From Spiribacter halobius (lineage in GTDB: Bacteria > Pseudomonadota > Gammaproteobacteria > Nitrococcales > Nitrococcaceae): a stretch of DNA of 64,000 bases. The notes beneath the pieces are model-generated. The model saw only the letters and a program-made list of their open reading frames with translations. It was not told the DNA's origin and did no database searches. Position 1 is the stretch's first letter, and each line of letters begins with the position of its first letter. This document shows, in pieces, positions 32,273-46,213 of this stretch. The position numbers and the translations under genes were made by a program. The stretch lies in NCBI RefSeq assembly GCF_020883455.1, contig NZ_CP086615.1, positions 1,922,001-1,986,000 of the forward strand, in the 5' to 3' direction.

Positions 32273-33214
32273 ATGCAGAGCGATTACCCCCGGGACCTGG
32301 TCGGCTACGGCCGCCATCGCCCGCACCCGGACTGGCCCGGCGGCGCCCGGGTGGCCGTGCAGTTCGTGCTCAACTACGAGGAGGGCGGCGAGCGCTGCGT
32401 GCTCGACGGCGACCCGCACGCCGAGACATTCCTCTCCGAGATCATCAATGCCCCCGCAGTGCCGGACCGGCATCTGAGCATGGAGTCGATCTACGAATAC
32501 GGCTCGCGGGTGGGCGTCTGGCGCGTGCTGCACGAGTTCGAGCGGCGCGGGCTGCCACTCACCGTGTTCGCCGTGGCCCGGGCCCTGCAGCGCAACCCCG
32601 AGGCTGCCGCCGCGTTCCGCGAGGCCGGGCACGAAATCGCCTGCCACGGGCTGCGCTGGATCAGCTATCAGGACGTGGACGAGGCTACCGAGCGTGCCCA
32701 CCTGGAGGAGGCGGTGCGCCTGCACCGGGAGCTCACCGGCGCGGCACCGCTCGGCTGGTACACCGGCCGCGACAGCCCCAACACCCGGCGCCTGGTGGTG
32801 GAGCACGGCGGCTTTCTCTACGACGCCGACCACTACGGCGACGAGCTGCCGTTCTGGACCGAGGTGCGCCTGTCCGACGGCCGCCGCGAGCCGCACCTGG
32901 TGGTGCCCTATACCCTGGATGCCAACGACATGCGCTTTGCCACGCCCCAGGGGTTCAACAGTGGGGACCAGTTCTTCGCCTATCTGCGGGATGCCTTCGA
33001 TGTGCTCTATGCCGAGGGCAGCGAGGCGCCGGCGATGCTCTCGGTGGGGCTGCACTGCCGGCTGATCGGCCGGCCCGGGCGATTCCGGGCGCTGCAGCGC
33101 TTCCTCGACCACATCGAGCGCCACGATGACGTCTGGGTCTGTCGGCGGGTGGATATCGCCCGGCACTGGCGGGAGCGGCATCCCTGGCATGGGGAGGCCC
33201 GCGGCCATGGCTGA
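32273..33214 (+). CDS. puuE: Allantoinase PuuE (polysaccharide-deacetylase fold)
   Basis: A 313-residue NodB-fold protein lacking the usual deacetylase zinc triad. It begins DYPRDLVGYGRHRPHPDWPGGARVAVQFV and carries NYEEGGE, EIINAP, SMESIYEYGSRVGVWR and HGLRWISYQD, the signature of PuuE, which opens allantoin to allantoate without metal. The start at 32273 has GGAGG 9 nt upstream. The 3' end overlaps the next gene by 8 bp, so puuE, the lyase and the allantoicase are translationally linked. Confidence 0.93.
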   Translation: MQSDYPRDLVGYGRHRPHPDWPGGARVAVQFVLNYEEGGERCVLDGDPHAETFLSEIINAPAVPDRHLSMESIYEYGSRVGVWRVLHEFERRGLPLTVFAVARALQRNPEAAAAFREAGHEIACHGLRWISYQDVDEATERAHLEEAVRLHRELTGAAPLGWYTGRDSPNTRRLVVEHGGFLYDADHYGDELPFWTEVRLSDGRREPHLVVPYTLDANDMRFATPQGFNSGDQFFAYLRDAFDVLYAEGSEAPAMLSVGLHCRLIGRPGRFRALQRFLDHIERHDDVWVCRRVDIARHWRERHPWHGEARGHG

Positions 33215-33743
33215 GCGTCTCGTCGCCCGCCCGCTGACCCGGGAGGCCTTCGCCCCCTTCGGCGAGGTGCTGCAGACCGGGGGCGCGGAGCACTTCCCGA
33301 TCAACGCCGGGACCACGGAGCGCTACCACGCCCTCGCCGCCGTGACGCTGGATGGGCCGCCGGCACGGGCGATTCTCAGCATCTTCCGCGGCCAGCCCGT
33401 GACCCCGCCGGTACGGCTGGCCTTGCTGGAGCGCCATCCCCTGGGCAGCCAGGCGTTCATGCCGCTGGACCGGCGGCCGTACCTGGTGGTGGTGGCGCCG
33501 CCCGGCGAGGGCTTCGCGCTGGGGGACCTGCACGCCTTCCTCGCCCGTGGCGATCAGGGCGTGAGCTATGCGCCGGGCGTCTGGCACCACCCACTGCTGG
33601 CGCTCGAGGCGGTGTCCGATTTTCTGGTGGTGGACCGCGACGGTCCGGGGAACAACTGCGATGAACGCCCGCTGCCGGCGCCGGTGGAGGTCGTGCTCCC
33701 CGCGGCCGCAGCCGGGGCAGGCAACGAGGAGGGGCCACGATGA
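33207..33743 (+). CDS. allA: Ureidoglycolate lyase
   Basis: A 178-residue cupin-like protein: RPLTREAFAPFGEVLQTGG, SIFRGQP, LERHPLGSQAFMPLDRRPYLVVVAPPGEG and YAPGVWHHPLLAL are the AllA hallmarks, including the conserved histidines. It releases urea and glyoxylate from ureidoglycolate. It starts at ATG 33207 within the 3' end of puuE and overlaps the allantoicase start by 4 bp (ATGA). Confidence 0.93.
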   Translation: MAERLVARPLTREAFAPFGEVLQTGGAEHFPINAGTTERYHALAAVTLDGPPARAILSIFRGQPVTPPVRLALLERHPLGSQAFMPLDRRPYLVVVAPPGEGFALGDLHAFLARGDQGVSYAPGVWHHPLLALEAVSDFLVVDRDGPGNNCDERPLPAPVEVVLPAAAAGAGNEEGPR

Positions 33744-34768
33744 CTGAAGCCGCGCGCCATGCGAACCCCGTCGAGCGGCCGGATTTCGCCCGGGGGCTCA
33801 GCAATCTCGCGGACGCACGGGCCGGCGCCACGGTGGTGGCGGTCAGCGACGAGTTCTTCGCGCCCGGCGAGCGCATGCTCGCCGCCGCGCCGCCGGTGTT
33901 CTACCCGGAGCGCTTCGACGATCACGGCAAGTGGATGGACGGCTGGGAGACGCGCCGTCGGCGGGGGCCCGGGCACGACTGGGCGGTGGTGCGGCTCGCC
34001 ATGCCCGGCGTGATCGAGGCCATCGAGCTGGATACCTCGTTCTTCACCGGCAACTTCCCGCCGGCCGCCTCGGTGGAGGCCTGCCGGGTGGAGTCGGGGG
34101 ACCCGGATGCTGCCACCGTCTGGCAGGAGATCGTGCCCGTGGTGAGCCTGCGGGGCGATGACCATCGCTTCTGCCGGGTGGAGGCCGGCGAGGTGTTCAC
34201 GCACTTGCGCCTGAATCTCTACCCGGATGGCGGCATCGCCCGCCTGCGCGTCCACGGCCGCGGCCGCCCGCGCCTCGCGGCCGCGGGGGGTGACGTCCCG
34301 GACCTCGCCGCCCTCGGGCATGGAGGGCGGGTGGTCGCCGTAAGCGATGCCCACTACGGCGACCCGAACGCCATCCTCGCCCCCGGCCGCGGCGTGAACA
34401 TGGGCGACGGCTGGGAGACCCGCCGACGGCGCGAGCCCGGCAACGACTGGGGCATCATTGCCCTGGGCTGTCCGGGTCGCATCGAGCGGGTCGTGGTGGA
34501 CACGGCGCACTTCAAGGGCAACTTCCCGGCCCGTGTCTCGCTGCAGGCCGCCCGTCCCGAGAATGCCACCGACGAGTCGCTGGTGCCGCAGAGCATGTTC
34601 TGGGAGACGCTGCTGCCGGAGATGCCGCTGCAGGCGGACGCGATCCACGAGTTCCAGACGGAGCAGCTTGTGGACGTGGGCGTGGTGTCCCATGTCCGGT
34701 GCAACCTGATACCCGACGGCGGTATCAGCCGCCTGCGTCTCCACGGCTGGCCCGAGGGGTCAGGCTAG
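33740..34768 (+). CDS. alc: Allantoicase
   Basis: A 342-residue protein made of two homologous beta-sandwich repeats. Each repeat contains a GWETRRRR segment (KWMDGWETRRRRGPGHDW and NMGDGWETRRRREPGNDW), an ELDTSFFTGNFP / VVDTAHFKGNFP segment, and a ...NLYPDGGIARLRVHG / ...NLIPDGGISRLRLHG ending. Allantoicase hydrolyses allantoate to ureidoglycolate and urea, which allA then uses. The TAG stop is part of the CTAG end of a repeat element, so the last few residues may have been altered by its insertion. Confidence 0.94.
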   Translation: MTEAARHANPVERPDFARGLSNLADARAGATVVAVSDEFFAPGERMLAAAPPVFYPERFDDHGKWMDGWETRRRRGPGHDWAVVRLAMPGVIEAIELDTSFFTGNFPPAASVEACRVESGDPDAATVWQEIVPVVSLRGDDHRFCRVEAGEVFTHLRLNLYPDGGIARLRVHGRGRPRLAAAGGDVPDLAALGHGGRVVAVSDAHYGDPNAILAPGRGVNMGDGWETRRRREPGNDWGIIALGCPGRIERVVVDTAHFKGNFPARVSLQAARPENATDESLVPQSMFWETLLPEMPLQADAIHEFQTEQLVDVGVVSHVRCNLIPDGGISRLRLHGWPEGSG

Positions 34769-35667: not shown

Positions 35668-35769
35668 AACGAGAAACGGCGACCCCGGATGCTCCGTAAG
35701 TCGCCGTTTCGCCGGGTATTCTTGGTGGGCGGTGCTGGGATCGAACCAGCGACCCCTGCCGTGTGAAGG
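35668..35769. other. attL: duplicated tRNA-Val 3' end plus downstream hairpin
   Basis: Matches 46084-46185 over 102 bp with one substitution. It contains the last 47 nt of tRNA-Val (minus strand) and its downstream hairpin (GAAACGGCGAC ... GTCGCCGTTTC) but lacks the 5' part of the tRNA, so it is a tRNA fragment, not a gene. It marks the left limit of the integrated element, and identity stops at GTGTGAAGG. Confidence 0.88.
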
Positions 35770-35918: not shown

Positions 35919-37250
35919 ATGTCCGGCAAGGCCCTGGATACCAGCATCACCGACACCGCCGCACGACGCTTCCTTAACGAAGCTGACGACCGCGCCACCC
36001 TCTGGTGCGACAAGGTCTCCGGCTTCCACCTACTGAAGACCCTCAAGGGCGGGAGCTGGCGCTACCGCTACACCGACCTGAAGGGGCGAAGGCGCGTGGC
36101 CACCGTGGGGCGTTACCCGAGCATGAAGCCGCAGGAGGCGGCAGAGAAGGCGCAGGCATGGCGAAACGACCGGGTGGACGTACTCTCCGAGCAGGAACGC
36201 GACAGAGAGGCTCAGAAAGCCGCTGAGCGCCTCGCAAAGCACCGGACGCTTGGGAAGTACATCGAAGGCCCCTATGCGCGCTATCAGGCCCGCAAGAAGG
36301 CTGGAGACGAAACGCTCGCCATCCTGCGGAACAACTTTGCCGCATGGCTCGATCGGGACATGGCGACGTTCAGCCGGGCGGACGTGCTCGAGTGGCAGGC
36401 AAAGCGTGAAGGCGAGGGCAGAGCGCACGCGACCCTGACCCGGGCGTTCGGGGCGCTCAAGACGCTGATGCGCCATGCGGTGCGTGAGGGCTTCCTTGAC
36501 GAGAACCCTTTGGATGGCGTGACGCTGGAGCGACCCACCGACACCGAGCGCGCCGCGCAGCTATCCGCCGAGCGTTCGTCAGCGCGCCGCTTGCTGACCG
36601 ATGACGAGATTCAGGGGCTGCATACCGGGCTCTCCGCGTTCGCCGACGAGGTACGTGCCCAGCGGCGCAACAGCCGCAAGCACGGCAGGGCTTACCTTCC
36701 CGACCTTGATGCTGTGGCCTATCCGCACTGGTTCATCCCATTCGCCTACTGCGCGCTCTACACCGGGATGCGCCCGGGTGACCTGTACTCGCTGACGTGG
36801 CTTGAGCTGAACGTGAACTTCGGTCGGCTGGTTAAGGTGCCGGAGAAGACCCGCCACCATCCGGACCCGGCGCGCATCACGATGGACCTGCCGCCGGAGC
36901 TGCTCAGGATCATGCGCGCATGGTGGGAGCAGCAGGGCAAGCCGGAGTCGGGCCTGGTGTTCCCGAGCCCCGTCAACGGCGAGCGCATGGACAAGAAGGC
37001 GCACCTGAGAGCGTGGGCGCGGGTGAAGCGCCTGGGCGGCCTGCCGGAGAACCTCACCTTCTACGCCCTGCGGCATCACTTCATATCGGCGCTGGTATCC
37101 GCCGGCGTGCCGCTGCTCACGGTCGCGCACATGGCGGGCCACAAGTCGGCCTCGATGATCGAACGGCACTACGGGCATCTGTGCCCGGTGGCGGCCGCGG
37201 ATGCGCTCGCGGCGTTTTCCCGGACGGTGGCGCGGAGGGAGCGGGCATGA
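35919..37250 (+). CDS. int: Tyrosine-recombinase integrase of the element
   Basis: A 443-residue P4/lambda-type integrase. Residues 1-90 form the arm-binding DUF4102-like domain (FLNEADDRATLWCDKVSGFHL ... RYPSMKPQEAAEKA). A SAM-like core-binding domain is at about 105-205. The catalytic part follows, with Arg in YTGMRPGDLYSLTW (about 286), the Y-x-L-R form of box II (FYALRHHFIS), GHK and the nucleophile Tyr in ERHYGHL (about 418). It is adjacent to attL, as usual for tRNA-targeting elements. It overlaps the next gene by 4 bp. Confidence 0.95.
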   Translation: MSGKALDTSITDTAARRFLNEADDRATLWCDKVSGFHLLKTLKGGSWRYRYTDLKGRRRVATVGRYPSMKPQEAAEKAQAWRNDRVDVLSEQERDREAQKAAERLAKHRTLGKYIEGPYARYQARKKAGDETLAILRNNFAAWLDRDMATFSRADVLEWQAKREGEGRAHATLTRAFGALKTLMRHAVREGFLDENPLDGVTLERPTDTERAAQLSAERSSARRLLTDDEIQGLHTGLSAFADEVRAQRRNSRKHGRAYLPDLDAVAYPHWFIPFAYCALYTGMRPGDLYSLTWLELNVNFGRLVKVPEKTRHHPDPARITMDLPPELLRIMRAWWEQQGKPESGLVFPSPVNGERMDKKAHLRAWARVKRLGGLPENLTFYALRHHFISALVSAGVPLLTVAHMAGHKSASMIERHYGHLCPVAAADALAAFSRTVARRERA

Positions 37251-37956: not shown

Positions 37957-38154
37957 ATGAACGACCCCAAGCACTCCGGCGTGCTCCGGCCACCGCAGGC
38001 CGCTGAGTATCTCGGAATGACAACTCGGCATCTCTACAACGTTGCCGAGCGTGATCCGACCTTCCCCCGAAAGATCGTCTTCAGTGCTCGCTGCGTCGGC
38101 TGGCGCCGCGAGGCGCTGGATGCGTGGCTGAAAGAAAAGGAGCGGGCGGCATGA
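37957..38154 (+). CDS. AlpA-like MerR-type helix-turn-helix regulator
   Basis: 65 residues with the AlpA/excisionase-type winged HTH: VLRPPQAAEYLGMTTRHLYNVAERDPTFPRKI then VGWRREALDAWLKEKER. AlpA proteins activate integrase or excision and early genes in P4-like elements and satellites. The gene lies behind a palindrome and hairpin that probably govern its expression. It overlaps the next gene by 4 bp. No CI-type repressor gene is seen in the element, so this is its most obvious switch protein. Confidence 0.85.
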   Translation: MNDPKHSGVLRPPQAAEYLGMTTRHLYNVAERDPTFPRKIVFSARCVGWRREALDAWLKEKERAA

Positions 38155-38432
38155 GTAATCGAGACATCAATTCCTGCCTCTGCCGAATCTGGGAAACGGT
38201 TTGGCTGGCCGATACTTTCGCCAAGTTCGACGAAAATAAACTTCACGCATTACTGGGCGAAGGCCACGCCGGAAACGTGATTGAGGCAATGCGCCGAGAA
38301 TTGGAGCGACGCGCACTGGATGCGATGGACGCAATGGATTGTGTGGAGGAGCAAATTGGCCACGTGCCCGACTTCCATGCCTTCCTCAAATCGCGCGGAA
38401 CGGAGGAGGCCAAGAAGCATGAGCACGACTGA
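38151..38432 (+). CDS. Hypothetical protein, 93 residues
   Basis: Starts at ATG 38151, overlapping the AlpA-like stop. Mostly helical and acidic (MRRELERRALDAMDAMDCVEEQIGHVPDFHAFLKSRG), with cysteines C9, C11 and a third near 65. Composition is less GC-rich than the chromosome. No family recognised. The tight overlaps suggest an early operon from alpA to the winged-helix gene. Confidence 0.6.
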   Translation: MSNRDINSCLCRIWETVWLADTFAKFDENKLHALLGEGHAGNVIEAMRRELERRALDAMDAMDCVEEQIGHVPDFHAFLKSRGTEEAKKHEHD

Positions 38433-38859
38433 ACGAAAGCGACCCGCTCCGGGTGACGCCGGGCGGGCCGCTAGGAATGAGCACAGGGCAGCACTCAATA
38501 GAGAGACTACCACCGTCCGCCGTCCGCCTAAAGCCTTCTGGACCAAGCGCCGGCGCGTGCTGCTGTTCTTGGCCCGCGGCGGTTCCCTGAACCGATTCGA
38601 GGCGGTCTCCAAGCTTCACGACTGGGTGCTGCCGAGCACCGTGGCAGCCATCCAGGAGGCCGACAGCATCGAGGTCGCCCGCCGGTACGAGCAGGTGTCG
38701 GGCTTCATGGGTAACCCCGTCACCGTCTCGCGTTACCGCCTGACCGACACAGAGCGCCTGAGAGCGCGTCAGAAGCTCGCAGCGGATATGTGCGCCGCCG
38801 GGCTCGCGAAGGACCGCGAGAGCGCGCTCAGGATGCTCGAGGCGGGCGAGGCGGCATAG
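38419..38859 (+). CDS. Hypothetical basic protein, 146 residues
   Basis: Starts at ATG 38419 within the 3' end of the previous gene. The first 50 residues are strongly basic (ERKRPAPGDAGRAARNEHRA, KAFWTKRRRVL); the rest looks like a small helical or winged fold (LFLARGGSLNRFEAVSKLHDWVLPSTVAAIQE, RYRLTDTERLRARQKL). DNA binding is plausible from charge and helix pattern, but no named family is recognised. It abuts the winged-helix gene directly. Confidence 0.6.
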   Translation: MSTTERKRPAPGDAGRAARNEHRAALNRETTTVRRPPKAFWTKRRRVLLFLARGGSLNRFEAVSKLHDWVLPSTVAAIQEADSIEVARRYEQVSGFMGNPVTVSRYRLTDTERLRARQKLAADMCAAGLAKDRESALRMLEAGEAA

Positions 38860-39300
38860 ATGGCGGGCGCCAGCCGCAAGCGCGGCCGCTACTACGGCGG
38901 GCGTGATGGCAAGGGCTTTTGCCCCTGGCCGGTCGAGTGCGCGACGCACCCGAACTTCTACGGGCTGAGCGCCATTGCAAAGGCGCTGCTGTTCGAGCTG
39001 CTCGGTCAGTACCGGGGGCGCAACAACGGCGACCTCACCACTGCATGGTCGGTGCTCAAGCACCGCGGCTGGCGGTCCCGGGACACGGTTCAGCGGGCCG
39101 AGGGAGAGCTGCTGAGGACAGGCTGGATTGTGAAGACCCGCCAGGGCGGACGGAACCGCTGCAACCTCTTCGCCTTGACCTTCTTTGACATCGACGAATG
39201 CGGCGGGAAGCTCGACACCCATCGCGTCGGCGAGCGGCTGAGCTACTGGCGACTCGGCTACAACCCGGAGCTCTCCGAGCAGGAGGGGCAAGCCGCGTGA
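38860..39300 (+). CDS. Winged-helix phage-type protein, possible replication initiator
   Basis: 146 residues with a pattern common in prophages and islands: FYGLSAIAKALLFELLGQYRGRNNGDLTTAWSVLKHRGWRSRDTVQRAEGELLRTGWIVKTRQGG then CNLFALTFFDIDEC. The central part is a winged helix (RSRDTVQRAEGELLRTGWI). It is followed at once by four 15-bp palindromic iterons, the layout of a replication initiator with its origin or of a regulator with its operators. No primase or helicase motif exists in the element. Confidence 0.7.
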   Translation: MAGASRKRGRYYGGRDGKGFCPWPVECATHPNFYGLSAIAKALLFELLGQYRGRNNGDLTTAWSVLKHRGWRSRDTVQRAEGELLRTGWIVKTRQGGRNRCNLFALTFFDIDECGGKLDTHRVGERLSYWRLGYNPELSEQEGQAA

Positions 39301-39743: not shown

Positions 39744-39904
39744 GGAAAAAGCGCGCGGGATGGATGCGCCGATGGGCGCGTCGGGAATGGGCCCGGCTCC
39801 AGGCGCAGGGGCTGTCCGCAGACCAGCGCCGGGCGCTGCGCATGGAGGAGCTCGGCCCGAAGGCCGTGCCGTGGGGGGATCCGGGTGAGCGTCGCCCGTC
39901 TTAA
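39740..39904 (+). CDS. Very small basic protein, 54 residues
   Basis: ATG 39740 overlaps the previous stop (ATGA). Arg/Trp-rich N-terminus (MRKKRAGWMRRWARREWARL) followed by LSADQRRALRMEELG. Its 3' end overlaps the next gene by 20 nt. No family recognised; it could be a nucleic-acid-binding peptide. Short length makes it uncertain. Confidence 0.45.
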   Translation: MRKKRAGWMRRWARREWARLQAQGLSADQRRALRMEELGPKAVPWGDPGERRPS

Positions 39905-40289
39905 CCGCCTGGTGGAGGCCGTGGACGACCCGGAGCTGCAAGAGTGGCTCCGGGGCGGCCTCGAGGCGTGGCGGGCCGGTGAGGACCTGGACCGCGCTCT
40001 CGGCCTGAGCGGCCCGCAGGCGACAAAGGCACGAGACGCTGCGATACGCCGCTGCGCTGACCTGCTGGACCGGGATGGCGCACTCTCCACCTGGGCGAAA
40101 GCCGGCCACGTCGAGGCGGCCATGAAGCACTACGAGGGCGTTGTCTGGCCGCGTCGTTATTCGCTGCCGAAGCGATTGGCAGATACGCCATTGAAGGCCG
40201 CATTGCACGAATGGATGACGATGGAAACCGCGAACGGGGTTCGCCCCATTCGGGTACAGCGTGCCCTCTACGAAATCCTGTGTTTCTGA
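39885..40289 (+). CDS. Hypothetical protein, 134 residues
   Basis: Starts at GTG 39885 inside the preceding frame. An all-helical look: DPELQEWLRGGLEAWRAGEDLDRALGLSG, then ATKARDAAIRRCADLLDR, then KHYEGVVWPRRYSLPKRLADTPLKAALHEWM. Conserved-looking Trp and basic positions hint at a nucleic-acid-binding or late-regulatory protein, but no family is recognised. It is the last gene before the capsid gene and may control it. Confidence 0.6.
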   Translation: MSVARLNRLVEAVDDPELQEWLRGGLEAWRAGEDLDRALGLSGPQATKARDAAIRRCADLLDRDGALSTWAKAGHVEAAMKHYEGVVWPRRYSLPKRLADTPLKAALHEWMTMETANGVRPIRVQRALYEILCF

Positions 40290-40357: not shown

Positions 40358-41434
40358 ATGCTTGAAGCAACCGCCAACACTCGAGACTTCACCGTCTCGG
40401 ACATCCGCGATGCGGGCGCCGATCTATTCGCCAAGGCGATGGGCGCACGCACCACGAATTCGCACCCCGTGGCCGAACAGCTCCGAAATCGGGAGCTGAG
40501 TCTGGCAGAGGCCGCATACATCCTCGGCGAGCCCGAGGTGAAGCGGCGCGGCGCAAGCGGCAAGACCGCGGGCCAGGTGGTCGGCATCGGACTGACCACC
40601 GACGACTTCGGCTCGGTGATGGAGTCCGCCGTCGGGCGCGTCGTCTCGCAGGCGTACCTTGCCGCGAGCGAGCATCGAAATCTGGTGCTCCCGTGGCCGG
40701 TGCCGAACTACCAGCCGGCACAGGTGGCCACCATCGACGTGGACGCCGACACGGGCGAGATTGGCGAGCTGGAGGAAATCCCCAGCGTTCAGGTGAGCGT
40801 GCCGCCCGGCCATACCGGCAGTGTCGAGAGCTACGCGGCCAACCTGATCGTTTCCTACAAGCTCGTCGTCAATGACCAGCTCGACGTGATCGCCACCACG
40901 GCCCGCGCCATTGCCGTCTCGGCAGCCCGGCGCGAGGCCCGTCGTCTTTACGAGTTTTTAGAAGGCAATCCCGAGATGGGTGACGGTGCCGCGATGTTCT
41001 CGTCTGGCGCGGGGAACCTAGTCACCGGCGTGAGCGGAGTCACGGCCGCCAACCTCGGCACCGCTATGGCCGCCCTGCGCAACCAGAAAACGCCAGGCGA
41101 CCAGTACGCCAACCACCGGGTGCAGACCCTCATCGTCCCGCCGGCTGAGGAGCAGCCGACTTACCAGGCGCTCCGCGAGACCGGCATCGAAGGTGTCTCG
41201 GTGATCGCTGCGCCCTGGGTCGCCTCAAGCAACTGGTACGCGATGGCCGCCCCGGACGTGGCCCCCACCGTGGCGATGATGTACCTCGCCCCTCGCGGCG
41301 ATACGGCCATGCGGACGGTGCGCACCTACCGCCGGCCGGGCGACCGCCTGAACCGTCGCACCGGCGTCGAGATTGCCCACGACTTCGGCTATGCCCCCGT
41401 GTCCCGGGTGGGCATCGTCAAGCTGACCAACTGA
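40358..41434 (+). CDS. Putative HK97-fold major capsid protein
   Basis: 358 residues resembling the capsid half of phage protease/major-capsid fusion proteins: LTTDDFGSVMESAVGRVVSQAY, then SVESYAANLIVSYKLVVNDQLDVIATTARAIAVSAARREARRLYEFLEGNPEMGDGAAMF, NHRVQTLIVPPAEE, and at the end TGVEIAHDFGYAPVSRVGIVKL. The ClpP-like protease part is absent, so capsid maturation would need another protease or none. The first 75 residues may act as scaffold. Satellites with their own capsid gene assemble distinct heads; that fits here. Assignment rests on pattern similarity only. Confidence 0.68.
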   Translation: MLEATANTRDFTVSDIRDAGADLFAKAMGARTTNSHPVAEQLRNRELSLAEAAYILGEPEVKRRGASGKTAGQVVGIGLTTDDFGSVMESAVGRVVSQAYLAASEHRNLVLPWPVPNYQPAQVATIDVDADTGEIGELEEIPSVQVSVPPGHTGSVESYAANLIVSYKLVVNDQLDVIATTARAIAVSAARREARRLYEFLEGNPEMGDGAAMFSSGAGNLVTGVSGVTAANLGTAMAALRNQKTPGDQYANHRVQTLIVPPAEEQPTYQALRETGIEGVSVIAAPWVASSNWYAMAAPDVAPTVAMMYLAPRGDTAMRTVRTYRRPGDRLNRRTGVEIAHDFGYAPVSRVGIVKLTN

Positions 41435-41444
41435 GGTGACGACC

Positions 41445-41669
41445 ATGCGCATGCGCAAGGATGAAACCCCTGACGAGGCAATCGGCCGTCTGATGGCTGA
41501 GGCAGCCAAGAAGGCCGCGCCCAAGGTCCGGGAGGCCTACGAGCTGGCCGTCGCCGAGAACGGACACACAGGCTCAGTGCTGGACCTGGTGGAGGACGTC
41601 CTCCAGCCGGCGCTCGCTGAGCACTTCGGCGAGGAATACACGCAGCGGCGCAAGCCGTTCGCGGCGTGA
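41445..41669 (+). CDS. Small hypothetical protein beside the capsid gene, 74 residues
   Basis: Starts at ATG 41445 with GAGGTG 5 nt upstream, 10 bp after the capsid stop. Helical and charged (DETPDEAIGRLMAEAAKKAAPKVREAYELAVAENG, LDLVEDVLQPALAEHFGEEY). Position right after the capsid suggests a head accessory, scaffold or completion protein. No family recognised. Confidence 0.55.
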   Translation: MRMRKDETPDEAIGRLMAEAAKKAAPKVREAYELAVAENGHTGSVLDLVEDVLQPALAEHFGEEYTQRRKPFAA

Positions 41670-41996: not shown

Positions 41997-42482
41997 ATGA
42001 AGCTGAGCAAGCAGCACCTCGCGGACCTGTTCGGCGTCACGGTGCGCACGGTCTCCGAGTGGCAGCGCGATACCGAGTTCCCGGCGCCGACTCGGGAAGG
42101 CCGCAGGAACCTCTACGACGCGGCCGCGGTGGTCGCCTGGTGGCGTGACCGGGAGATTGCCCGGCTCATCGAAGGCGAGGACGGCCGGCTGCTCGACCTG
42201 AACCACGAGCGGGCTCGGCTGGCGAAGGCACAGGCCGACCGACAGGAATACGCGCTGGCCCGCGAGCGCGGCGAGCTGGTCGAGGCGGCAGCGGTCGGCG
42301 AGGTGGTCGGCGACGACTACACGCGGATGCGCGCCCGACTGCTGGCGTTGCCGACCAAGGCCGCCGCGATGGTCACGCCCGAGACCGACACCGCGGTCTG
42401 CCAGCGCATCCTCGACGACCTGGTGCGCGAGGCCCTCAACGAGCTGAGCGATCCGAACACCGTCTACCAGGAGGCCGTGTAA
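41997..42482 (+). CDS. Terminase small subunit (Nu1 family)
   Basis: 161 residues. The N-terminal winged helix MKLSKQHLADLFGVTVRTVSEWQRD...GRRNLYDAAAVVAWW is the Nu1 cos-binding domain. A coiled helical part follows (LNHERARLAKAQADRQEYALARERGELVEAAAVGEVV, RMRARLLALPTKAAAMV). Nu1 proteins choose the DNA to be packaged and hand it to the large terminase. No large subunit is encoded in the element, so it would redirect a helper enzyme. TAATG overlap with the next gene. Confidence 0.9.
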   Translation: MKLSKQHLADLFGVTVRTVSEWQRDTEFPAPTREGRRNLYDAAAVVAWWRDREIARLIEGEDGRLLDLNHERARLAKAQADRQEYALARERGELVEAAAVGEVVGDDYTRMRARLLALPTKAAAMVTPETDTAVCQRILDDLVREALNELSDPNTVYQEAV

Positions 42483-44221
42483 TGGCAGGCCGTACTTTCA
42501 CCTTCGGCGTTCGCGTCACCGGCGACGCCCGCGGTGGTGTCCAGGCGATGCAGATGACCGAGCGCGAGCTCAAGGACCTTCGCCGGGAGCTACAGCGCAC
42601 CGACCGAGGCTTGAAGAACAGTCGCCGTGGCTTCGATCGCTGGGCACGCGGAATGCTCAGCATGCGCAACGCCATCGGCCCGCTGGTGGGCGTGGCTGGT
42701 GCGGGCATGCTCGCCCGCCTTGGGCAGCAAAGCATCTCCGCGGCCTCTGAGGTCGGCAAGGCGGCGGATACCGCTGGCGTCGGGGCTGAGTCCCTTCAGG
42801 AATTGCGCTTCGCCCTCGGCGAGCTGGCGAACGTCTCCGAGAGCCAGACCGATACCGCTCTGCAACGGCTGAACCGTCGCCTCGGCCTTGCAGCGGACGG
42901 CAGCGGTGCGGCCAAGGACACCTTTGACGAACTCGGCATTGCGATGCGTGATGCCGGTGGCCGTGTCCGGGATACCGAGGTGGTCCTGGAAGAAGCGCTG
43001 CGGTCGCTCGCCGAGATCGACAACAATGCCACCCGGGCGGCCAAGGCATCGGAGCTGTTCGGCGAGGAGATGGGGCCACGGATCGCCGCCTCGCTGTCCG
43101 ACGGCATCCAGGCGATGGAGGACTCCCGCGACCGTGCCCACGAGCTGAACGCGGTGCTCGGCGAGGACCTGGTGGAGTCCGCCGAGAAGTTCGACGACTG
43201 GCTGAGGCGGCTCTCGATCCGTCTCAGGGGCGGATTCCGCAGGGAGCTGCTGGAGGCCGGAGCGGCGCTGGAGCGTTTCTTTGAGATCGGTGAGGGTGAA
43301 GACCTCGCCTTCCGCATCGGCCGGCGCCTGGAGACGCTGGAAGAGGCGACGATGGGCCGCCTGGAGCTGCCCGCCCGGCGCGTGGCTGAGCTTCGGCAGG
43401 AGATCGTCTGGCTCGCGAAAGATATAGACGCGCTCGACCCCAGCGTTGTGAACGTTCACCCGATTCAAAACCAGTCCACCGAGCTGCCTCTGCCGGGCCT
43501 TCGCTTCGGCTTTGCAGAGGACACGCAACGCGCTCTGGATGCCGCCGCCCGTCGCCGACAGGCCCGCCGGTTCGTAGCCGAGAACTACGGCGGGAGCCCC
43601 GGCCCGAACCCTCTGGTGGACCTGCCCGAGGTCACCATGAGCATGCGGGAGCTGCGCGAGGCGGCGCGCAGTGCCACCGAGCCCGTGCGGGAGCTCAACA
43701 ACCTCGGAGCCGATCTTGGGATGACCTTCTCCAGCTCTCTGGAAGATTCACTGGTCAGCTTCGATGACTGGCGCGATACCGTGAAGAGCGGCCTCGAGGA
43801 CGTTGCCCGCATCATCTACCGCACCTTCATCACCGCACCGCTCGGACGCCAGGCGGGAAACTTCGTCTCGGGGCTGTTCCCCAGCGGCGGCTTTGAAGGC
43901 GTCGGGAACGCCACTCCGCGGGCCTTTGCGGATGGGGGCGTTATCGACCGCCCCACGGTCGCCCTTGCTGGCGAGGCTGGCCCCGAGGCCGTGTTCCCGC
44001 TTACCCGCATGGGCGGGAAGCTCGGGATTCAGGCGAGCGGTGGCGCCGGCGACGTTCACATCCACAACGAAGGCCAGCCGATGCAGGTTGAGCGCTTCGA
44101 GCGGCGAGGCCCTGATCTTCACGTCTGGGTGCGCAACGAGATGCGCCGAAGCCTGAACCAGGGCGAGCTGGACCGTGAGATGGCCGGCAACTTCGGGATC
44201 AACCGCCGGGGCTCGCGATGA
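42482..44221 (+). CDS. Tail tape-measure protein
   Basis: 579 residues. The N-terminal half has the tape-measure pattern FGVRVTGDARGGVQAMQMTERELKDLRRELQRTDRGLKNSRRGFDRWARGM, a hydrophobic stretch NAIGPLVGVAGAGMLARLG, and DTAGVGAESLQELRFALGELANVSESQTD typical of TMP families. The C-terminus has FADGGVIDRPTVALAGEAGPEAVFPLTRMGGKLGIQ, a signature of siphophage tape measures. Tape-measure length sets tail length, so at about 1.5 A per residue a short tail near 85 nm is expected. No other tail gene is present in the element, which is unusual for a satellite. The gene is intact and overlapped on both sides. Confidence 0.88.
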   Translation: MAGRTFTFGVRVTGDARGGVQAMQMTERELKDLRRELQRTDRGLKNSRRGFDRWARGMLSMRNAIGPLVGVAGAGMLARLGQQSISAASEVGKAADTAGVGAESLQELRFALGELANVSESQTDTALQRLNRRLGLAADGSGAAKDTFDELGIAMRDAGGRVRDTEVVLEEALRSLAEIDNNATRAAKASELFGEEMGPRIAASLSDGIQAMEDSRDRAHELNAVLGEDLVESAEKFDDWLRRLSIRLRGGFRRELLEAGAALERFFEIGEGEDLAFRIGRRLETLEEATMGRLELPARRVAELRQEIVWLAKDIDALDPSVVNVHPIQNQSTELPLPGLRFGFAEDTQRALDAAARRRQARRFVAENYGGSPGPNPLVDLPEVTMSMRELREAARSATEPVRELNNLGADLGMTFSSSLEDSLVSFDDWRDTVKSGLEDVARIIYRTFITAPLGRQAGNFVSGLFPSGGFEGVGNATPRAFADGGVIDRPTVALAGEAGPEAVFPLTRMGGKLGIQASGGAGDVHIHNEGQPMQVERFERRGPDLHVWVRNEMRRSLNQGELDREMAGNFGINRRGSR

Positions 44222-44436
44222 GTGAGGGCGACACCCTGGACGAGGAGCTGCGGGCCCTCGGGCGCTACCTCGACAGTCGGCCCGTGGATACCGGCACCGC
44301 ACTGGTAACGATGGCCCGGGCGATGGGTGCCAGCGTGCGGTCGCTGGCGCGCACAGACGAGGACAGGCGGGCGTTGCTGGAGCGGCTGGCCGTGGTCACC
44401 GAGACGCACGCAGGGCTAGCTGATAAGCCCAACTGA
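44218..44436 (+). CDS. Small hypothetical protein, 72 residues
   Basis: Overlaps the tape-measure stop by 4 bp (ATGA). Soluble, acidic start (MSEGDTLDEELRALGRYLD) and a helical end. Last rightward gene of the structural run. In complete phages small chaperones lie before, not after, the tape measure, so no function is assigned. Confidence 0.55.
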   Translation: MSEGDTLDEELRALGRYLDSRPVDTGTALVTMARAMGASVRSLARTDEDRRALLERLAVVTETHAGLADKPN

Positions 44437-44535: not shown

Positions 44536-45210
44536 TTACCTCGGAACCGTGCCGCCCAAGTGCTCTATTTTGCTCTCGATCTTCTCGATGAGTTGGCTTT
44601 GCTCATCGTCTGGAACATTGTCTTTCCGGATTGAGAACAGTGCCTCAAGGTAGATTTCAAGTGCCTTTTTGTTTTGCCCTTTGAATTCCGCTTTCTCGGC
44701 TTCGTGAAGATGCGCATGGGCGATTGTATCGGCGATTTCTTTACGTACTTCGTGCTCAAATTCTTGTAGCTCATCAATGTCTTCAAACTGGATTTGATAT
44801 TCGGTGACTTGCTCTAGAACTTTGCTGAAAGGCTCGATCTTTCCCGATACGGTTATCGCGTTCTCAGACTTGCTCCTAGCTAGGATACGCTGAGTGTTCA
44901 GTGGCTCCAAAACCTTCTTAGCTCGCTCCTCCCGCCATTCCTGTATAGCTTGTGATGGTGGCGGGTCAATCGTGCTAATTCCACGATCTTCAAACATCTT
45001 TAAGTTTTCCAATGCCATCAAACCAAGCTTATAATAAAAGAGAGTGGTATCGAGTTTTTTGCTGTTCCTGATGTGCTCGGTATATTCATCAAGAAGCCTC
45101 ATAACCTCAGACTTTTGGGGATTTACTTTTTTTTGGCATTTTGTGCAAATGCCGTCCTTATCTTTTCCCAGAAACCATCCTGAGCGCTTGCACAACTTGC
45201 ACTTAGCCAT
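44536..45210 (-). CDS. Zinc-ribbon protein with helical repeats, low-GC cargo gene
   Basis: 224 residues from ATG 45210 (GGGGGAT 6 nt upstream). An N-terminal zinc ribbon MAKCKLCKRSGWFLGKDKDG...CTKCQKK (CxxC...CxxC) is followed by a long helical, Lys/Glu-rich part and a TPR-like end (HEAEKAEFKGQNKKALEIYLEALFSIRKDNVPDDEQ). Codon use and GC (clearly below half in long stretches) differ strongly from every other gene in the window, which marks recent acquisition. Position at the element's end with opposite orientation is where satellites carry accessory or defence cargo. Function unknown. Confidence 0.75.
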   Translation of the reverse strand: MAKCKLCKRSGWFLGKDKDGICTKCQKKVNPQKSEVMRLLDEYTEHIRNSKKLDTTLFYYKLGLMALENLKMFEDRGISTIDPPPSQAIQEWREERAKKVLEPLNTQRILARSKSENAITVSGKIEPFSKVLEQVTEYQIQFEDIDELQEFEHEVRKEIADTIAHAHLHEAEKAEFKGQNKKALEIYLEALFSIRKDNVPDDEQSQLIEKIESKIEHLGGTVPR

Positions 45211-45330: not shown

Positions 45331-45651
45331 CTACTCGGCATCTACTCCGGTCTTGATCGTCACATCCACGAATACGCGGCGGTTCCAGAAGAAGCCTTCC
45401 AGTCTCACGTCTTTCACTTGGACGAATACGGAGCGGCCCTTGTCCATTCTCTCCGCGAGCCATGACGCATGCCTCGCCGGTATGTAGCCGACCATCGTGT
45501 GGTCGCCGAGGTAAAGGGCTACCGCGTTGGGGTCTACCGGATTATCAGGTTCACGCTTGGCGACGAGCTGAGAGCCCGAGGTTAGCCGGCTGGCGGCCTT
45601 CCGACGCTGCTTGTTGATGATGCCTGCGATGTAGGATGAATAGTTGCCCAT
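45331..45651 (-). CDS. HIRAN-domain protein
   Basis: 106 residues. SGSQLVAKREPDNPVDPNAVALYLGD then HTMVGYIPARHASWLAERMDKGRSVFVQV is the HIRAN pattern (REPdNP-D-NAVa ... vGYiP). HIRAN modules bind damaged or free 3' DNA ends and occur in helicases and as small stand-alone proteins in mobile elements. The start at 45651 has GAAGAAGAA upstream. It lies 120 bp before the zinc-ribbon gene on the same strand; the two may form one cargo operon. Confidence 0.8.
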   Translation of the reverse strand: MGNYSSYIAGIINKQRRKAASRLTSGSQLVAKREPDNPVDPNAVALYLGDHTMVGYIPARHASWLAERMDKGRSVFVQVKDVRLEGFFWNRRVFVDVTIKTGVDAE

Positions 45652-46083: not shown

Positions 46084-46185
46084 AACGAGAAACGGCGACC
46101 CCCGATGCTCCGTAAGTCGCCGTTTCGCCGGGTATTCTTGGTGGGCGGTGCTGGGATCGAACCAGCGACCCCTGCCGTGTGAAGG
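46084..46185. other. attR: right copy of the 102-bp attachment repeat
   Basis: One mismatch to 35668-35769. It covers the 3' part of the intact tRNA-Val and 55 bp downstream of it, including the hairpin GAAACGGCGAC/GTCGCCGTTTC. The element therefore brings a replacement for both the tRNA 3' end and the following hairpin, keeping the tRNA gene functional after insertion. Confidence 0.88.
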
Positions 46186-46213
46186 CAGTGCTCTCCCGCT
46201 GAGCTAACCGCCC
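46139..46213 (-). tRNA. tRNA-Val (anticodon CAC)
   Basis: On the minus strand: acceptor GGGCGGT pairing with ACCGCCC, D-arm GCTCAGCGGGAGAGC, anticodon arm CTGCC-TTCACAC-GGCAG giving CAC, T-arm with GGTTCGATCC and an encoded CCA end. It reads valine codon GTG. The 3' half coincides with attR, and a truncated second copy marks attL. A promoter with TTGACA-N17-TAGACT lies just upstream. Confidence 0.95.

Follow-up and report, generated by a model that had tools for sequence, protein, structure and literature searches.

The window, which is the whole 64,000-nucleotide stretch of DNA that was analysed, is part of a complete 4.17-Mb gammaproteobacterial chromosome and contains a bounded phage satellite of 10.4 kb located between direct repeats. 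The left copy of the 102-bp repeat, attL (35668..35769), is 99% identical to the right copy, attR (46084..46185), which overlaps the 3' part of a tRNA-Val(cac) gene on the minus strand (46139-46213). Outside attL, at 33126-34768, are genes that we take to be allantoin/ureidoglycolate degradation-like, including an allantoicase-like one with an internal repeat.

The element first encodes, in order, an integrase, a 209-aa ORF, AlpA, two 146-aa ORFs, two short ORFs, and orf134. It continues with the major capsid protein (MCP), orf77, orf108, the small terminase (TerS), the tape-measure protein (TMP), orf72, and accessory ORFs on the minus strand. The tyrosine integrase (443 aa; 35919..37250, plus strand) matches PF00589 (E 2e-19) and phrog_1 (E 1e-51), and the AlpA-like regulator (65 aa; 37957..38154, plus strand) matches PF05930 (E 5e-7). 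The 146-aa ORFs (38419-38859 and 38860-39300, both on the plus strand) feature weak O-like matches only (E 0.16-0.24); the first has a 40% homologue in a second satellite of the host genome, and the second may be replication-initiator-like. The MCP (358 aa; 40358..41434, plus strand) matches PF25209 (E 8e-26) and aligns with protease-capsid fusion families over their C-terminal capsid portion alone, which corresponds to positions 323-666 of the 668 in phrog_133. It is preceded immediately by the conserved orf134 (39885..40289, plus strand) and followed by orf77 (41436..41669, plus strand), which is conserved after the MCP, belongs to no family, and has homologues in two other satellites (97% and 73%). 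TerS is a Nu1-type protein (161 aa; 41997..42482, plus strand) that matches PF07471 (E 1e-14) and phrog_57 (E 3e-35). The minus-strand accessory ORFs encode 223 aa (44536..45207), with no significant family match, and 106 aa (45331..45651), which matches phrog_18569 (E 7e-12), a family of unassigned function.

The TMP gene (42482..44221, plus strand) is an uninterrupted frame of 579 codons. The N-terminal signature is a PF10145 match at residues 86-194 that scores 38.6 bits against a cut-off of 33.2 (E 1.4e-9), and residues 64-249 match phrog_8462 (E 1.6e-25), the best of many tape-measure PHROGs that cover the N-terminal 250 residues. The C-terminal signature, at residues ~475-525, is given by several tape-measure PHROGs (E 7e-7 to 2e-4); the PF09718 match to this end is sub-threshold, and tblastn with the C-terminus alone retrieves siphophage tape measures. 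The protein thus has a curated tape-measure family match above cut-off as well as N- and C-terminal regions in common with the TMPs of phage tail clusters. The TMP start overlaps the TerS stop, and the start of orf72 (44218..44436, plus strand) overlaps the TMP stop (ATGA), so that coupled translation of the three frames is likely.

A family scan of every plausible ORF in the element recognised no tube, chaperone, baseplate, tip, or fibre gene, and no portal, large terminase, protease, or connector gene. The initial annotation had described an intact 579-residue protein with tape-measure signatures at both ends and no companion tail gene; the PF10145 and PHROG matches and the open frame bear out the first part, and the scan agrees with the second. 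A short tail chaperone could escape such a scan, since orf77, orf108, and orf72 match no family.

The ends of the TMP are of the lambda-type siphophage kind, as judged from their relatives. The N-terminal domain is 36% identical to the TMP of Salicola phage CGphi29, and the C-terminus is 32% identical to the siphophage TMP of Pseudomonas phage R656. Scans of viral contigs with single proteins (the TMP, the MCP, and the 929-aa TMP of a second satellite lineage, described below) found no close relatives. A scan with an alignment of satellite TMP C-termini kept 80 loci, from which 79 TMP ORFs were examined, and 15 of these also match the N-terminal domain of the window TMP. The complete both-end TMPs are 667-944 aa long, and those on the longer contigs inspected are located within siphophage tail modules, as determined by the length, order, and sequence motifs of their neighbours. 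The middle of the protein (window residues 251-411) is 161 aa in the satellite and 242-530 aa in ten aligned viral-contig relatives, which makes the satellite middle shorter by 81-369 aa (median about 118); identity to these relatives is low, at 18-37% for the N-terminal end and about 30% for the C-terminal end, and the boundaries of the middle depend on the alignment. TMPs of 217-225 aa with the same C-terminal motif are found at seven loci (L115, L125, L130, L134, L138, L143, and L151). By their neighbours these clusters presumably belong to rhodobacterial gene transfer agents and are not satellites. The GTA-like TMPs of ~220 aa, which are shorter than the satellite TMP, mark how short proteins of this C-terminal type can naturally be.

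The host chromosome features two resident prophages with tape measures of their own. The siphophage-like prophage, at about 2.749-2.777 Mb, has lambda-type TerL and portal families and a TMP of 916 aa, and was rejected as the TMP source because neither end shows detectable similarity (best BLAST E 0.25). The Mu-like prophage has a TMP of 517 aa, which is shorter than 579, and was also rejected, as it matches the N-terminal domain only (36% over 184 aa). No helper TMP that matches both ends was found in the host genome. A PF09718 search of the genome gave no match and is insensitive, because it also missed the C-terminus of the satellite's own TMP. The initial annotation had proposed that shared ends with a shorter middle would support substitution of a helper TMP, and that ends matching no co-resident phage would count against it. 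The shared ends and shorter middle are found in comparison with the viral-contig siphophages but not with the co-resident phages, where only the N-terminal match to the Mu-like TMP departs from a complete mismatch. This mismatch is a weak refutation, and a resident helper is not excluded by dissimilarity, because the TMPs of the Vibrio cholerae satellites known as PLEs are only about 20% identical to the TMP of ICP1, the helper TMP that they replace (PMC12987554); moreover, the helper need not be resident.

The second satellite in the host genome (G000:C1:642496-655484; L003:2496-15484) is located at a tRNA-Lys gene between 49-bp perfect repeats. Its MCP is 98.6% identical and its TerS 98% identical to those of the window element. 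Its TMP shows 86-87% identity across residues 1-452 but stops at 460 aa, with the C-terminus lost. The truncated TMP is followed by a SEC-C motif protein, and a reverse transcriptase of the group II intron type (PF00078 and GIIM) has inserted into the element. Comparison of the two copies gives a dN/dS of 0.124 for the TMP over codons 1-384 (0.10-0.14 along them), together with 0.066 for the MCP, 0.098 for TerS, and 0.063 for orf134. These values indicate that the TMP is under purifying selection and, therefore, that the window copy is maintained. From about codon 385 the two TMP copies diverge strongly, which suggests that recombination near the C-terminus preceded truncation of the second copy, whose TMP has probably lost its function. 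With its near-identical MCP and TerS and a TMP cut at 460, the second copy is a natural comparison for the window element.

Relatives were gathered by MCP searches, which yielded further satellites with orf134 immediately before the MCP; a scan of genome contigs with the MCP alignment returned three loci only, all already among the known ones. Homologues of orf134 adjoin the MCP in seven other satellites (L003, L034, L023, L035, L067, L068, and L036), and the gene is immediately upstream of the MCP in every family member aligned. The predicted model of orf134 is all-helical (pLDDT 85); the protein belongs to no known family and a fold search gave no significant match. Our guess is that it could be a scaffold or a capsid-size factor. 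Longer capsid ORFs are found at L036:3570-5408 (612 aa) and L037:407-2464 (685 aa) and look like protease-capsid fusions. On this appearance, the protease domain may have been lost or gained within the element group.

A TMP is present in some of these satellites and absent from others. In L023 (G007), which adjoins a tRNA-Met gene and in which a search for a second attachment repeat found none, the TMP is ~618 aa when read across one frameshift, which may be a sequencing error because the contig title gives a coverage of 1.7. In L067 (G281), an element of about 9.5 kb with a 25-bp repeat, the TMP is 809 aa and matches PF06791 above cut-off. The satellites L034 (G004), L035 (G049), L068 (G317), and L036 (G007:C50) have no TMP, and none was detected near the related MCPs of L069 and L070, either by tblastn with two satellite TMPs or in the ORF lists. 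The TMP is therefore not required in the family. A homologue of orf72 follows the TMP in L023, and another is found in L036, which has no TMP. L035 has TerS and a gene for an SOS response associated peptidase (SRAP; L035:13386-14171), located between TerS and the tRNA-Gln repeat in the place that the TMP occupies in the window element.

A TMP is also found behind a different capsid family. In the G035 lineage (L047:8087-12215), which features a phrog_10 MCP and a 55-bp repeat at a tRNA-Lys gene, the MCP is followed directly by a TMP of 929 aa. The genome has this MCP-TMP pair in two copies, and the second TMP, 97% identical, is split over two contigs (C11/C13). A small gp77-like protein (PF23148) accompanies the MCP-TMP pair in this lineage. 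Since the TMP recurs in some satellites and is absent from others, it is an accessory module behind satellite MCPs rather than a one-off. The distribution provides evidence for the repeated use of a TMP in at least two satellite capsid lineages, which would be new.

The reading that we favour, and consider moderately probable, is that the window element is an active or recently active satellite whose own tape measure goes into tails that a lambda-type siphophage helper otherwise builds. The satellite would supply three single virion subunits, TerS, MCP, and TMP. By analogy with SaPI-type biology TerS would steer packaging, the MCP would provide the head or alter its shape, and the TMP would take the place of the helper's tape measure, while the helper would provide the portal, large terminase, maturation protease, tube, chaperones, tip, and fibres. 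With the helper active, the overlapping frames of TerS, TMP, and orf72 would be co-translated. The satellite TMP would then nucleate on the helper's tail-tip complex via its lambda-like C-terminus, and its 579 residues would set the length to which the tube grows along it. The expected outcome is satellite particles with chimeric tails, shorter than those of the helper if the helper resembles the relatives found. Such tails would presumably benefit the satellite.

The precedent for this reading is a 2026 study in V. cholerae, in which the TMP of PLE virions was found to replace that of the helper; PLE11 tails are about 10 nm shorter, and deletion of tmp in a PLE lowers transduction by 96-99.9% (PMC12987554). 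Scaled by the PLE relation of 95 aa to roughly 10-15 nm, the median difference of about 118 aa in the middle would make tails some 12-19 nm shorter than in typical relatives. The initial annotation had suggested that substitution of the helper's TMP could produce shorter tails. The shorter middle, the selection on the gene, its recurrence, and the PLE precedent favour this suggestion, and the resident TMPs and the long satellite TMPs do not. Shorter tails are no general rule, because satellite TMPs of 809 and 929 aa exist. Further points against substitution are that the element has no recognisable tail assembly chaperone, whereas the PLEs carry one, that the L047 TMP is not short, that the second-copy TMP has no C-terminus, and that several relatives have no TMP.

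It is unlikely that the TMP serves mainly as a dominant-negative decoy, sequestering chaperones or tail tips of the helper and so lowering the yield of helper tails, with no place in functional satellite tails. Satellite tail-assembly inhibitors do exist, namely Tai in PICIs (PMC11364771) and Rta in PLE11 (PMC12987554), and the window TMP keeps its C-terminus, the end that should contact the tail tip. The known inhibitors are, however, dedicated proteins (Rta is 80 aa), and the satellite keeps a full tape measure, with both ends and the middle, at the low dN/dS found along codons 1-384, where a simple decoy would need less.

More doubtful still is the proposal that the satellite TMP, once in tails, mainly alters how DNA is ejected into the next host, for instance by evading an exclusion system aimed at the helper TMP, with tail length as a by-product. 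TMPs have a role in injecting the genome (HK97 studies cited in PMC11364771). In addition, TMP features are kept by satellite TMPs of different length (579, 618, 809, and 929 aa), so that selection may not be acting on length. Set against this, the middle of the window TMP is shorter than in 10 of 10 aligned phage relatives, and no exclusion gene was identified.

The least probable explanation is that the TMP is a remnant of a siphophage prophage that has decayed, or is carried along passively: the truncated TMP of the second satellite, the frameshift in L023, and the related satellites without a TMP fit it, but the L023 frameshift is suspect at its coverage, and the reading is weakened by the intact frame, the low dN/dS, the overlaps with TerS and orf72, the clean attachment repeats, and the recurrence of an MCP followed by a TMP in satellites of different genomes and sites.

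With chimeric tails retained as the preferred reading of the window element, a broader proposal can be put forward tentatively, at somewhat less than even chances. A class of minimal satellites would swap one subunit in each helper assembly line, the MCP for the head, TerS for packaging, and the TMP for the tail. TMP swapping would have arisen repeatedly outside the PLEs and cf-PICIs through the capture of different siphophage TMPs (of PF10145 type and TMP_2 type) behind at least two satellite capsid genes, without a satellite tail chaperone. If this is true, tape-measure replacement is not peculiar to the cholera PLEs and recurs in small satellites with a single tail gene, and a parasite needs no more than the ruler to mark a tail or to redirect it. 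An element of 10 kb that has a single TMP but lacks genes for a chaperone, a hub, or fibres would be a simple test bed for what lets one tape measure prevail over another.

TMP substitution itself is an established mechanism in the PLEs (PMC12987554), and it is the setting that is new here. PLE1, PLE4, and PLE11 resemble the window element in having a complete TMP that is shorter than its phage counterparts and no tube or fibre genes, which means that chimeric tails would be needed in both. The PLEs also carry a tail assembly chaperone and, in some cases, a baseplate hub, and they rely on ICP1, a phage with a contractile tail. Compared by gene content, the window element has a TMP alone, with no recognisable chaperone beside it; the C-terminus of this TMP is lambda-like, and the element encodes an MCP of its own and a TerS of the Nu1 type. 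Putative tmp genes have also been reported for elements resembling PLEs and for some of the cf-PICIs sampled (PMC12987554, Extended Data Fig. 10b). Like the cf-PICIs, the window element is an integrated satellite that encodes its own MCP and TerS, with a putative TMP in some cf-PICIs as well, but the cf-PICIs carry the whole head and packaging set of protease, portal, connectors, and large terminase (PMC10690885), all of which are absent from the window element. The lone capsid gene is reminiscent of Ccm from SaPIbov5 (PMC8569155), a satellite homologue of a capsid protein that redirects head assembly and may co-assemble with the helper capsid. Ccm acts in a staphylococcal cos-type SaPI, and co-assembly of the window MCP is putative, the two being likened by description. 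The integrase, AlpA, specific attachment site, and size of 10.4 kb, within the range of about 10-15 kb, are those of Gram-negative PICIs, some of which also have terS (PMC6092414). PICIs are described as having no phage structural genes, in wording that concerns Gram-positive PICIs, whereas the window element has both an MCP and a TMP. The window element, a minimal satellite with MCP, TerS, and TMP, thus belongs with neither the PLEs nor the cf-PICIs.
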